DNA from: a virus
IMG/VR virus record: IMGVR_UViG_3300036399_000827
Span: 1 to 37,927 of that record
Length of the DNA: 37,927 nucleotides
Reading direction: 5' to 3' (one strand)
Shown: in pieces, positions 2,060-37,927 of the stretch
How the letters are laid out: each line of letters starts with the position of its first letter
Position numbering within the stretch: the first letter of the stretch is position 1
Made by a program: the position numbers and the translations under genes
Notes under the pieces: generated by a model
What the model saw: the letters and a program-made list of their open reading frames with translations, nothing else
What the model was told of the DNA's origin: nothing
The model's database searches: none

Positions 2060-2921
2060 GTACGCGCGTCTACTCTGTCAGGCCGACGGCACCATGCCTG
2101 CGCTGATTGAAACCATGTTGCCGCGCATTCTGCGGAACAAAAAGAACGGCGCGATGCACGCGGAGTCCACGCAAAAACAGTATCGTCAAGCAGCGTCCGT
2201 GCTGGCTCAGATGCTCGCGCCGTTATCGGTTCAGGACGTCTCGCCGCGCGATGTCAAAGCCGTTCGCCGCGAATTGCAGGACACACCAGCGGTCGCCAAT
2301 CGCACGGTCACGGTGCTAAAGCTCATTCTGCAGGAAGCCGTGGACGACGAGCTCATCCCGTCAAACCCGGCTGGCGGCATCAAGCAGCCCAAACTAGCGG
2401 CCCGCACTCGACGCCTGACGGACGCCGAGTTCCGCCGCATCTACGCGCATGCCGACCCGCTGCTGCGCGCGGTTATGTCGCTGTGCTACGCGACCGGGCA
2501 GCGCGTGATGGACGTTGCGTCGATCCGCTCTGAGGACATCAGCGACCAGGGCGTTTACGTCAAAGCGCAGAAAACCGGCAAAGAAGTGGTGATCGCTTGG
2601 ACGAGCGATCTGCGCGCCGCTGTAGCCGAGGCTCGCGCGCTAAAGCCCAACGCGCTGCGGCCGACGCACCTGTGGGGCTTCGCGCCACTGACGTACCCGA
2701 TGATCTACAAGCGCTGGCGCATGGCCCGTGTCGCCGCCCAGGTTGCCGACGCACGCATACACGACATCCGCGCGATGGCCGCGACGGACGCCCGCGCGCA
2801 GGGCATAGACCCGCAGGCGCTGCTAGGCCACACGGACGCGGCCACGACGCGGATCTACCTGCGCGACCGGGTTGTGCCGGTTGTGGCGGGGCCGGTGATG
2901 CGGCGGCCGAAACGGGCGTGA
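1932..2921 (+). CDS. int: Tyrosine-family site-specific integrase
   Basis: A 329-residue tyrosine recombinase that would integrate and excise the phage genome at attP/attB. The catalytic set is visible: Arg191 in TGQRVMD, Lys214 in the KAQKTGK hairpin, His277 and Arg280 in HDIR, His300 in LLGH, and the nucleophile Tyr309 in TRIYLR. Residues about 1-60 form an arm-binding-like region and about 75-155 a SAM-like core-binding domain. The start at 1932 was chosen because GGAGG lies about seven bases upstream; in-frame ATGs at 1872 and 1926 are less well placed. It proves a temperate lifestyle. I could not identify an attP core next to it. Confidence 0.95.
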   Translation: MNRPRKRDRHLPACMYHKHGAYYLVRNGKWRRLGTELAPSLHEYARLLCQADGTMPALIETMLPRILRNKKNGAMHAESTQKQYRQAASVLAQMLAPLSVQDVSPRDVKAVRRELQDTPAVANRTVTVLKLILQEAVDDELIPSNPAGGIKQPKLAARTRRLTDAEFRRIYAHADPLLRAVMSLCYATGQRVMDVASIRSEDISDQGVYVKAQKTGKEVVIAWTSDLRAAVAEARALKPNALRPTHLWGFAPLTYPMIYKRWRMARVAAQVADARIHDIRAMAATDARAQGIDPQALLGHTDAATTRIYLRDRVVPVVAGPVMRRPKRA

Positions 2922-29862: not shown

Positions 29863-29999
29863 CAGTCCGCCCCCGCCTCGCGCTCGTGACGCTCGCAGAC
29901 AAACACTGCCGGCTCATCCACCAGCCGACACCACCGCACCGCCACGTACAGCGGCGGGTATGCGCGCGACTCGCAGTGCGTGCATGTGGCGCAGGTCAT
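29862..29999 (-). CDS. 45-aa zinc-ribbon-like protein
   Basis: Starts at ATG 29999, in an ATGA overlap with the helicase-loader gene. The sequence MTCATCTHCESRAYPPLYVA carries Cys at 3, 6 and 9, with further Cys at 24 and 35 and a His at 38, so at least one zinc site is likely. Tiny phage zinc proteins of this kind are common downstream of replication genes. A much longer in-frame reading exists upstream but runs antisense-like through the loader gene and is rejected. Confidence 0.6.
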   Translation of the reverse strand: MTCATCTHCESRAYPPLYVAVRWCRLVDEPAVFVCERHEREAGAD

Positions 30000-30508
30000 G
30001 CCGGCACCTCGCGGCCCGTCTCTAACAGCGCCGCGCAGGCCATCTTGTAGCTCGCATGCGCCAGAACCTTGTCGCCGCCTCGGTATCGCTCGATGACGCG
30101 ATACGCCCACGACAACGGGTCGCGGGGCTGCTCGCGCCCTACCGTCGCCACAAGCCGCTCGACCTTCGCGCGGGCCGCAGCGAGCTCGCCATCGGTGCGC
30201 GGGGCCGGCAGGGCTAGCGGCTGGTGCATGGCCACGACCGGCGCGGGCTTGCGCTTGCACAGCGCGACAAACTCGGGAAGGCTCGGCGGGAACGTCACGC
30301 CGGATTCCTCAAGCGCGCGGATACCTGCCAGGATCTGCTCGACCGAGTAGCGCCCCAGCGAGTCGCACCAGACCCCCTTCACCGCGTCGGGCTGCTGCTG
30401 ACCCCACATGCGCTTCATCGCCGCGTCGCCGTACATCGCGGCGAATCTGGCAAACAGCCGATCAACCGCGCGGAGTGACAAGCCTGGGGACATCGTTTCG
30501 GTCTGCAT
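29996..30508 (-). CDS. Lambda P-like replicative helicase loader
   Basis: A 170-residue protein resembling phage lambda replication protein P: VDRLFARFAAMYGDAAMKRM, a central helix, YSVEQILAGIRALEESGVTF and then PPSLPEFVALC, the family's P-S-x-x-E-F-x-x-x-C signature. P proteins take the host DnaB helicase to the origin marked by O. It follows the O-like gene and overlaps its end by 47 bases (or 32 if the ATG at 30493 is used). No ribosome-binding site is clear, so coupling is likely. Confidence 0.8.
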   Translation of the reverse strand: MQTETMSPGLSLRAVDRLFARFAAMYGDAAMKRMWGQQQPDAVKGVWCDSLGRYSVEQILAGIRALEESGVTFPPSLPEFVALCKRKPAPVVAMHQPLALPAPRTDGELAAARAKVERLVATVGREQPRDPLSWAYRVIERYRGGDKVLAHASYKMACAALLETGREVPA

Positions 30509-31352
30509 CGATCGTGCTCAGTTGCGTTGGGAGTCGGCCTGCAAGGCCACCCGTCAGGGCGTGCATGAAAGCGCCGTCGCGTTCATCGCGCTCATCGGCA
30601 GCGGAGCGGTAGGGCGATGCTCGGGCCTGCTTAGGAGAGCGCTCATTGCGGACAAAGTTCCTCCACGTCGCGGGCCAGTCGACCTTGCGGCCCTTCGCCC
30701 CCGGCACGCCGAGCCAGTAGTCGCGGAACTTCTCGACGACGGCCGTAGGGCTCAGGTCATCCCGCTCGGTCCTGCACCACGCAACGGCGTCGGCATCCGG
30801 GAATCCGTCAGGGATCCGGCAGCCACGGACAGAGGGCGCGACGTCAGTCGCGGGTGTCTCTATCTTTTCTTCTTGCTCCGAGAGTCCGAGAGTCCGAGAG
30901 TCCGAGAGTCCGCCGGGCTCGCCAACGCCTAGGTTCGCCCTAGGCTCGCCTTGGGTTTGCCTAGGGCTAGCCTTGGGCTCGCCTTCAGCCGCTTGCATGG
31001 GGGGCGTAGGCGCTGCCTGGGCCATGCCTTCGGGTGCCGGGATGACGCTTGCGGCCTCGCGCGGGTGGGGCTTCTGATGCTTGTGGAAAGCCGGGATGGC
31101 AAGGTAAGCCACGCCATGCACGGTGTAGCGCAAGACCAATCCGGCCTTCTGAAGACGCTGCAAGCAGGCGTCAACGTCAACCGAGTCGCACGGAAAAACA
31201 GCCATTCGAATTCGCTTCGGGCGATCTTCAAGGCGTCCCTCTCGGTCTGCCAGTGTCCACAGCCCGGCAAACAACAGGCGGTCCTCAAACGGCAGCTCGA
31301 CAAGTTCCTCGTTCGTGAAGAACCCGGGCGCGATGTTTCTGACGCGGGCCAT
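30462..31352 (-). CDS. Lambda O-like replication initiation protein
   Basis: A 296-residue protein. ATG 31352 has GGAG upstream and starts the conserved MARVRNIAPGFFTNEELVEL, followed by LLFAGLWTLADREGRLEDRP, a winged-helix-like head found in many phage replication proteins. A Pro/Gly/Lys/Glu-rich linker lies at about 110-160, and the C-terminal part has VEKFRDYWLGVPGAKGRKVD, then WPATWRNFVRNE, like DnaT/phage replication C-domains. The linker DNA contains the iteron-like array and the 8-bp tandem repeat, so the origin probably lies inside this gene as in lambda. Confidence 0.8.
   Translation of the reverse strand: MARVRNIAPGFFTNEELVELPFEDRLLFAGLWTLADREGRLEDRPKRIRMAVFPCDSVDVDACLQRLQKAGLVLRYTVHGVAYLAIPAFHKHQKPHPREAASVIPAPEGMAQAAPTPPMQAAEGEPKASPRQTQGEPRANLGVGEPGGLSDSRTLGLSEQEEKIETPATDVAPSVRGCRIPDGFPDADAVAWCRTERDDLSPTAVVEKFRDYWLGVPGAKGRKVDWPATWRNFVRNERSPKQARASPYRSAADERDERDGAFMHALTGGLAGRLPTQLSTIDADRNDVPRLVTPRG
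30880..30911. repeat. Four perfect 8-bp tandem repeats GAGAGTCC
   Basis: Four head-to-tail copies in the linker of the O-like gene. Eight is not a multiple of three, so slippage would shift the reading frame. A pyrimidine/AT-rich stretch (TATCTTTTCTTCTTGC, 30861-30876) adjoins it. Confidence 0.9.
30913..30983. repeat. Iteron-like array of 11-bp repeats, candidate replication origin
   Basis: Five contiguous 11-bp units (30929-30983): CTAGGTTCGCC, CTAGGCTCGCC, TTGGGTTTGCC, TAGGGCTAGCC, TTGGGCTCGCC. A sixth related unit, CCGGGCTCGCC, lies at 30913-30923 after a 5-bp gap. The period of 11 does not match codons and the encoded peptide is not periodic, so selection acts on the DNA. The site sits in the middle of the O-like gene next to an AT-rich stretch, the layout of the lambda origin. 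Confidence 0.7.
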
Positions 31353-31755: not shown

Positions 31756-32219
31756 CGTCCCCTCCCGACAAGCAATTCACGAAGAAGCCTGTTCTCGTCA
31801 GCCAGCTGCAAGTTCCGCTCTTGCCCCTCGCGCACCTGTCGTTCCAACTCGGTTTCTAGGGGTCGTAGTTCGTACCCGCGCGAGTGCGCCAGCCATTCGA
31901 GCGGCGCCTCATTGCCCGCCATGTCCATCAGCGGGCCGAGCAAATGCAGCGGGAAATGCGCGCCACCGGACACCATGCGCGACCAGTGCGCGGGGTCAAT
32001 GCCGAGGCTGATGCACGCTTCCTTGTCGGCGATGCCGGCGGCCTGTAGGCAGAGCTGGATCGCCGACAACATAGACGGCTGGCGATGCACAAGCGCCGGA
32101 TCAACGTCGATCGGGTCGCCGGGCGTCACAAGCGGAATCTGCCGACTCGCAACCGCCGTCGAGCTTCTAGACGACGGTTGACGGTCTGGAATCGGCGTGA
32201 TGCGTGAGACTGTAGACAT
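31752..32219 (-). CDS. CII-like helix-turn-helix regulator
   Basis: A 155-residue protein. After a disordered N-terminus of about 45 residues, the stretch MLSAIQLCLQAAGIADKEAC, then ISLGIDPAHWSRMVSGGAHF reads as a helix-turn-helix. PLMDMAGNEAPLEWLAHSRG follows, a pattern known in phage early regulators in the CII position, and a leucine-rich coiled coil (ERQVREGQERNLQLADENRL) ends the protein, suited to oligomerisation. It is the first large gene after cro in the early operon. GAGG lies eight bases before ATG 32219. Confidence 0.7.
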   Translation of the reverse strand: MSTVSRITPIPDRQPSSRSSTAVASRQIPLVTPGDPIDVDPALVHRQPSMLSAIQLCLQAAGIADKEACISLGIDPAHWSRMVSGGAHFPLHLLGPLMDMAGNEAPLEWLAHSRGYELRPLETELERQVREGQERNLQLADENRLLRELLVGRGR

Positions 32220-33874: not shown

Positions 33875-34101
33875 TGCGCGACGCCGCTGATGCACAAATG
33901 CGCCATGAGTCGTTCATGGCAGATGTCGCGGCCGAGCGCGACGAGCACCGCGCCAACATGACCGAGATTGCAATCCTGCGCGACCGCGTGGCACTGCTGC
34001 GCCGCGCTGTAGCCGACGCAAAATCGCAGGGATGGGGAAGCATGCCGATTGCGTCGCTTGAGGTGTACTTAGGCGTTGCGGGCGAGCGAGGCGAAGCATG
34101 A
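33874..34101 (+). CDS. Hypothetical coiled-coil protein, 75 aa
   Basis: ATG 33874 overlaps the stop of the membrane peptide. It has a heptad-like stretch (MADVAAERDEHRANMTEIAI, LRDRVALLRRAVADAK) and ends with SMPIASLEVYLGVAGERGEA. It may pair with the membrane peptide, as their genes are coupled. Ends overlapping the alanine-repeat gene. Confidence 0.6.
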   Translation: MRDAADAQMRHESFMADVAAERDEHRANMTEIAILRDRVALLRRAVADAKSQGWGSMPIASLEVYLGVAGERGEA

Positions 34102-34703
34102 AGACAACTCTCAACGCAATCCGCGAGCACAGCCCGTGCGCCAATGGATGGGCCAAGCTCTTGCGTCATTTGGGCAAAACCATGGCCGACGACGAGCCGC
34201 TGTCCATCGTCACGGTTTTGGATAGCAATGGGCTAAACGACGCGCTGTGGTGTACGCGCGCCGTTACCGGGCACGACAGAGAGATCCGGTTGTATGCGGT
34301 CTGGTGCGCGCGGCAGGTGCAGCATCTGATGACCGACCCGCGCTCGATTGCCGCGCTTGACGTGGCCGAGCGGTTTGCAAATGGCGAGGCGACGCGCGGC
34401 GATCTAGACGCTGCGAGGGCCGCTGCGAGGGCCGCTGCGTGGGCCGCTGCGGGTGCCGCTGCGTGGGCCGCTGCGAGGGACGCTGCGTGGGCCGCTGCGT
34501 GGGCCGCTGCGAGGGACGCTGCGTGGGCCGCTGCGAGGGACGCTGCGGGTGCCGATGCGATGGACGCTGCGAGGGCCGCTGCGTGGGACGCTGCGGTGGC
34601 CGTTGCGTGGGCCGCTGCGGGGGACGCTGCGTGGGACGCTGCGAGGGACGATCAAGCGACTCGTCTGCGTGAGGTTTGCGCCGCGTGCGAGGTGACGGCA
34701 TGA
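34098..34703 (+). CDS. Alanine-rich tetrapeptide-repeat protein
   Basis: A 201-residue protein. Residues 1-104 form a normal globular head (MKTTLNAIREHSPCANGWAK, SIVTVLDSNGLNDALWCTRA, REIRLYAVWCARQVQHLM). Residues about 105-184 are exactly 20 tetrapeptides of the form A-A-x-A/D, where x is mostly Trp, Arg or Gly. A short tail with two Cys follows. Heads of this type fused to (AAWA)n/(AARD)n tails recur in phages, and the function is unknown. The repeat would be a long helix with one face of Trp/Arg. Coupled to neighbours by ATGA. Confidence 0.75.
   Translation: MKTTLNAIREHSPCANGWAKLLRHLGKTMADDEPLSIVTVLDSNGLNDALWCTRAVTGHDREIRLYAVWCARQVQHLMTDPRSIAALDVAERFANGEATRGDLDAARAAARAAAWAAAGAAAWAAARDAAWAAAWAAARDAAWAAARDAAGADAMDAARAAAWDAAVAVAWAAAGDAAWDAARDDQATRLREVCAACEVTA
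34410..34649 (+). repeat. 20 tandem 12-bp repeats GCTGCGNGGGNC
   Basis: Exactly 240 bp made of twenty imperfect units encoding the A-A-x-A/D tetrapeptides of the gene at 34098. Unit length is a multiple of three, so slippage changes only protein length. It creates long false ORFs on other frames. Confidence 0.9.
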
Positions 34704-37876: not shown

Positions 37877-37911
37877 CTGAGCAAATGCGGCCAGTCGGGG
37901 ACGGGTACGGG
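37786..37911. repeat. Right copy of the terminal redundancy
   Basis: Identical to bases 1-126; see the left copy. The last 16 bases of the contig (37912-37927) continue in a different order of hexamer units than the left copy. Confidence 0.9.
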
Positions 37912-37927
37912 TACGGGTACGGGGACG
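37873..37927 (+). CDS. 5' fragment of the Gly-Tyr repeat protein gene
   Basis: The same gene as at 88-333, cut by the end of the contig after about ten residues of repeat. Its repeat order (TAC-TAC-GAC) differs from the left copy (AAC-TAC-AAC-GAC), indicating another allele or a graph path in the assembly. Confidence 0.8.
   Translation, partial: MTEQMRPVGDGYGYGYGD

Follow-up and report, generated by a model that had tools for sequence, protein, structure and literature searches.

A two-part repeat array within a phage initiator gene and its probable role as a replication origin

The initiator gene and the arrays in its linker

The window, i.e. the whole stretch of DNA analysed, is a virus record of 37,927 bases. 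Gene P0001 (30462..31352, minus strand) encodes a protein of 296 aa that was identified as a replication initiator from PHROG matches and an AlphaFold2 model. It matches several 'replication initiation protein' profiles, the best being phrog_16167 (E 2e-46), and the match that places it in the PHROG 16167/1408 group covers its N-domain. No domain was found for P0001 in Pfam and NCBIfam, and a PDB sequence search with the initiator gave nothing relevant. The gene encodes, in this order, a winged-helix N-domain, a linker that bears the arrays and a helical C-domain. The winged-helix DNA-binding domain spans aa 1-105 (31038..31352, minus strand) and is modeled with confidence at residues 10-105 (pLDDT mostly 90-98). 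Residues 97-98 (P-R; codons at 31059..31064, minus strand), the two columns that predict iteron class (see below), sit in an ordered segment past the wing in the model. The linker is disordered, with pLDDT under 50. The C-terminal helical domain (aa about 177-245; 30618..30824, minus strand) was delimited from the model and from comparison with the close relative L002, in which it is exchanged (24% protein identity vs 86% in the N-domain). A P-like helicase loader gene (29996..30508, minus strand; phrog_109, E 1.6e-11) adjoins the initiator gene, its start overlapping the end of the latter.

The linker contains two arrays. Along the gene (minus) strand, five contiguous 11-bp iterons come first (30926..30980); from 30980 down to 30926 they read GAGCCCAAGGC TAGCCCTAGGC AAACCCAAGGC GAGCCTAGGGC GAACCTAGGCG, and each is a dyad of the form GCCY-N-RGGC (class B) plus a 2-bp spacer. 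Tandem Repeats Finder places this array at 30926-30985. An imperfect sixth unit, GGCGAGCCC (30915..30923, minus strand), is followed by the second array, which consists of 8-bp direct repeats, GGACTCTC (30877..30912, minus strand; Tandem Repeats Finder, 4.5 copies, 100%). A short purine/AT-rich stretch, GCAAGAAGAAAAGATAGAG (30853..30876, minus strand; AT about 0.6), lies 3' of the second array and is a possible melting site. The second array of the window is GC-rich (5 of 8), unlike a classic AT-rich unwinding element, and the AT-rich part extends only about 20 bp behind it.

Each array is the best of its period anywhere in the 37.9-kb window. In a test with 2000 shuffles of synonymous codons within the gene, p was <=0.001 for the five 11-bp units and <=0.0005 for the four 8-bp units. 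The initial annotation had described an 11-bp and an 8-bp array with a sixth 11-bp unit set apart, and this description holds. Its 11-bp units are real repeats; they are described more exactly as dyads with lineage-specific letters.

A repeated peptide cannot yield arrays of 11 or 8 bp, because neither period is a multiple of three. It is most improbable that the repeated amino acids of the linker (e.g. LIPDSLIPDS) are themselves what is selected. LIPDS-like repeats are encoded by many homologues, and periods of 21 bp are also periods of seven codons, but the periods 7, 8 and 11 do not fit codons, the arrays beat shuffles that keep the protein, and copies exist in noncoding DNA. In comparison with L002, moreover, codons for the same amino acid are 100% identical in the 8-bp array vs 46-57% in the N-domain. 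The 8-bp array is kept at 36/36 nt in L001 and at 35/36 (97%) in L002; the array flanks of L002 and the window share 42-56% of bases. Selection at the level of DNA, as first proposed, is upheld by the periods, the shuffles and the noncoding copies.

The GC skew of the window has its minimum at 31,929. It was rejected as evidence for an origin because this minimum falls on a divergent promoter/transcription boundary.

Two other repeats were observed in the window. At 111-302 there are 32 copies of a 6-bp CGGGTA-type unit, which recurs at 37896-37927; the two ends of the record were probably produced by a break within a single tandem array, the genome being circular or terminally redundant. Within an alanine-rich ORF (34098-34703), a 12-bp repeat is present in about 20 copies at 34409-34647, and since a period of 12 bp is a multiple of three, this may be a repeat at the protein level.

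Recurrence of the layout and the letters of the iterons

Homologues were drawn from viral contigs, GTDB genomes and annotated phages, and 150 non-redundant genes were kept. For each lag, the self-match of every gene was compared with 100 synonymous shuffles and the genes beating all shuffles were counted, with 1.5 genes expected. Lag 11 was significant in 61 of the 150 genes, lag 22 in 50 and lag 33 in 20. The corresponding counts for the second period were 53 at lag 7, 16 at lag 8, 34 at lag 14, 26 at lag 15, 47 at lag 21 and 13 at lag 28. Most other lags gave 0-6 genes; lags 16 (14 genes), 29 (10), 35 (8) and 36 (7) were moderately raised and are largely sums or multiples of the 11- and 7/8-bp units. 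The strong over-representation of the periods 11/22/33 and 7/8/14/15/21 is confined to the linker. Arrays of four units were found with period 11 in 78 genes, 7 in 49, 8 in 16, 12 in three and 13 in none. Among 144 control genes from the same loci, 0 were significant at lag 11, 1 at lag 7 and 1 at lag 8.

In 25 of the 26 genes in which both arrays are strong, the 11-bp one is 5' of the 7/8-bp one. About a hundred related phages share this two-part layout; about a quarter of the homologues contain no significant repeat (global p<=0.01). Across the family, average AT goes up by 0.08 over the final 30 bp of the second strip and then falls, which hints weakly at a melting site. Second arrays that are very long and perfect, or higher-order (33-bp) arrays of iterons, were observed in L044, L121, L127 and L069, which suggests recent expansion within the coding linker. 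L182 (NZ_CP081787), a 6.2-kb E. coli record, is called a plasmid, yet it is linear and its genes are early genes of phages (initiator, ATP-binding protein, Nin genes and Q); a phage-plasmid or prophage fragment is more likely.

The layout is common to the homologues, but the letters are not. The 11-bp units are dyadic, with a mean symmetry of 2.57 vs 2.14 for a column-permuted null (maximum 2.23). A count of all 4+1+4 palindromes in the linkers gave no overall excess for spacer 1; the dyad signal lies in which half-sites recur (GCAC, TAAC). Three main classes were distinguished, each with a 2-bp spacer: A (GCAC-N-GTGC), B (GCCY-N-RGGC, the class of the window) and C (TAAC-N-GTTA). The class could be called in 88 genes, 41 of them A, 31 B (window included) and 16 C. 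Other letters occur, such as the 11-bp units ending in TCGCG in Mycobacterium phage Fishburne. A second array of TGATTC type accompanies 38/41 class A, 20/31 class B and 15/16 class C genes. This strip thus spans all three classes and is mostly constant, unlike the iteron letters. The GGACTCTC array occurs only in the window, L001 and L002, and was found in no other viral contig; GGAACAGG forms the second array of three genes, that of Fishburne among them.

Similarity between iterons tracks the N-domain (Mantel r 0.44, p 0.0005). With the N-domain controlled for, the C-domain is not associated with the iteron letters (r -0.04). Columns 97-98, directly past the conserved KHQxPH and the wing, stand out. 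They were assessed in disjoint pairs of genes of different class with backbones 51-80% identical, the class labels being taken from DNA 3' of codon 99 only. In A vs B pairs residue 97 was right in 31/31 and residue 98 in 25/25, the latter being the same in six pairs. The counts were 15/15 and 15/16 in A vs C pairs, and 12/12 and 16/16 in B vs C pairs. In a held-out set of 97 new genes, 37 of which have a clear DNA class, residues 97-98 predicted the class in 34/37, compared with 30/37 for the nearest neighbour by backbone, 28/37 for the best other adjacent pair and 25/37 for the majority class. On the N-domain tree, in which branch support is weak, at least 19 changes of iteron class are counted. 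As a tree-aware independent-pairs test on well-supported branches had just 1-2 usable pairs, the phylogenetic independence of the residue code rests on the disjoint pairs and the held-out set. From these comparisons, residues 97-98 would predict which iteron letters an initiator reads.

The account in which short tandem repeats expanded by chance through replication slippage in an unconstrained linker can hardly be credited. The linkers are disordered, and the perfect copies seen in some cases (e.g. in L044 and L127) may stem from recent expansion, as slippage would have it. It would not, however, favour 11 and 7/8 bp alone, produce dyads, or lead to covariation with two residues of the protein. 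The neighbouring genes show nothing of the kind, equivalent arrays occur in noncoding DNA, and the copies are divergent yet true to their class.

Arrays in noncoding DNA and the proposed origin

A scan of viral contigs for the TGATTCC strip yielded 65 contigs. Of 67 arrays examined, the GGACTCTC ones included, 29 fall within an ORF that matches the N-domain, and the others are mostly noncoding. A homologous initiator is present in 22 of the 26 records searched. The initial annotation had regarded the same protein with no repeats in its linker as an argument against an origin. Such relatives exist: in 19 of these 22 genomes the initiator is short and its linker free of repeats, yet the same two-part array is found in noncoding DNA. 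It lies about 2.4 kb upstream in the two genomes compared (G003 and G009). Relocation of the array to noncoding DNA shows that the element belongs to the DNA level and is not tied to the peptide, and it argues for a cis-acting role.

The class of the noncoding arrays follows residues 97-98. HRRE initiators are found with CCTAGG units, HKKE initiators with GCACAGTGC and GCACCATGC units, and an HKRE initiator (G007) with a mixture of units. The HKKE initiators belong to four near-identical genomes (G009-G012), with an N-domain 81% identical to that of G001, and count as one evolutionary contrast, not four. Neither the window array nor the noncoding array matched any named phage in BLASTN.

Noncoding two-part arrays near a phage repressor gene were observed in L461 (about 2430-2600, minus strand), L423, L427, L435, L439, L446, L466 and L475. 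Behind these arrays lie what appears to be an inverted repeat rich in G+C and an AT-rich run (GAAAAAAATTAGC); the arrays are candidate stand-alone origins. In L477 the TGATTCC array is located at nt 904 of a stop-to-stop frame of 306 aa on the minus strand, at the 3' end of the gene. This gene appears ParB-like by eye and is without the initiator N-domain; no iterons were recognised by eye upstream. G002, G004, G023 and G024 (loci L427, L435, L481 and L482) contain the array, and an initiator homologue was not found in these records, which may end as fragments or may use another initiator.

Alternatively, the array might be an autoregulatory operator, through which the initiator would repress or adjust the transcription of its own gene, and not an origin. 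Initiators often autoregulate, and an operator would also fit next to a repressor gene, where the noncoding array of the 19 genomes is located. Most genomes have the array in the coding linker, however, a long way from the start codon; it would be unusual for an operator to include a second array in strict order and with a 7/8-bp period of its own, and the layout parallels lambda and RepA_N origins. The operator is considered unlikely.

The preferred reading is that the repeats are the replication origin of the phage, located within the linker of its own initiator gene and bound by the initiator, and on sequence comparison this is very probable. It is supported at the sequence level by the two arrays and their order, their restriction to the linker, their recurrence in the family, the covariation with the N-domain and the relocation to noncoding DNA. 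The candidate origin of the initial annotation is strongly supported by this comparison, the layout being family-wide and linker-specific and the 11-bp units covarying with the N-domain, not the C-domain. Binding, opening, helicase loading and the start of replication would all take place at the arrays.

In the proposed mechanism, the winged-helix N-domain would bind the 11-bp iterons, each a short dyad, and residues 97-98, just past the wing, may help to read the half-site. The pitch of one helical turn would let copies of the initiator stack on one face of the DNA and form a nucleoprotein array. Assembly of this array would open the DNA at the strip of 7/8-bp direct repeats and at the short AT/purine-rich segment that follows, and the second strip would be held as a single strand, like the TrfA and RepE repeats (PMC4081077). 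The C-domain would then hand over the helicase via the P-like loader. The iteron-filling half of this mechanism is supported by the covariation; the second strip presumably acts in opening or in helicase loading.

The wider proposal, for and against which the chances seem about even, is that of a large, previously undescribed class of phage origins. Its two-part cis element would travel with the initiator, either in the linker or as a free noncoding module. A code centred on two residues would switch the iteron letters, and a constant 7/8-bp strip would be read as a single strand by another activity that the classes have in common (initiator C-domain, loader or host factor). Initiators homologous to P0001 are found in hundreds of phage contigs, and the two-part layout makes origins findable from sequence alone. 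As the residue code predicts which iterons are read, incompatibility and module exchange become directly testable. The putative origin is located within the gene in most phages but outside it in a sister group whose protein is the same, a natural experiment that bears on why origins are embedded in initiator genes.

Comparison with known systems

As in lambda (O/P), where the origin lies within the linker of the initiator gene (PMC7466680), the arrays described here are located in the linker, with a putative role as origin. Dyadic iterons 5' of the unwinding region and a C-domain with a P-type loader downstream are also shared with lambda (PMC7466680), and the adjacent loader gene found here (phrog_109) conforms to lambda-type origins. 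The lambda iterons are 18 bp long, with starts 20-24 bp apart (39034, 39054, 39078, 39101), and precede an AT-rich tract, whereas the present array consists of contiguous 11-bp units with 7/8-bp direct repeats behind it; the initial annotation was correct in noting longer, differently spaced iterons in lambda. Its term 'lambda-O-like' applies to layout and role, but not to homology. A profile comparison with lambda O, the lambda side being a single sequence, gave a probability of 0.2%, and the Pfam lambda O family matched none of 64 family members. Membership in the lambda O family was rejected, as sequence homology is not detectable and iteron size and spacing differ.

In the RepA_N plasmid pSK41 (staphylococcal), a winged-helix N-domain binds repeats in the center of the rep gene, the linker is dispensable as protein and the C-domain is DnaD-like and host-specific (PMC5703833). 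N-domains are swappable there, an example being pPR9, with an N-domain that resembles a phage replication protein (PMC5703833). The repeats described here share with RepA_N origins their position inside the initiator gene between N- and C-domains. Unlike here, pSK41 has four Rep boxes with A+T-rich tracts. RepA_N initiators took ranks 1-2 in Foldseek, with weak scores (E 0.013; Z 6.4-7.2, values equalled by unrelated winged helices), and the structures 4pt7, 4pql and 5kbj were among the top rows of the fold search. The nearest solved folds to the model thus appear, weakly, to be RepA_N plasmid initiators. The Pfam RepA_N domain (PF06970) gave no match in 64 members at E<=0.01.

Unlike the present initiators, plasmid Rep proteins have two winged-helix domains, and the 13-mers of RK2 lie within an AT-rich unwinding element. 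In iteron plasmids such as RK2 the origin is located outside the rep gene. RK2 (TrfA) is nevertheless similar in combining duplex-bound repeats with further direct repeats of which one single strand is bound, and is the model used here for the role of the second array (PMC4081077).

Pseudomonas phage F10 and Mycobacterium phage Fishburne encode homologous initiators that are annotated as proteins only, with no origin annotated in the stretches shown; both contain significant 8-bp arrays (CTGATTCT and GGAACAGG, respectively). Mycobacterial cluster-A phages with RepA have an experimentally tested origin with repA, in which the authors found no repeats (PMC7157519). No description of the 11-bp plus 7/8-bp layout was found in the literature searched, which comprised open-licence papers. 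An iteron origin inside a phage initiator gene is of a known kind; the contiguous 11-bp array combined with a 7/8-bp array appears to be new.
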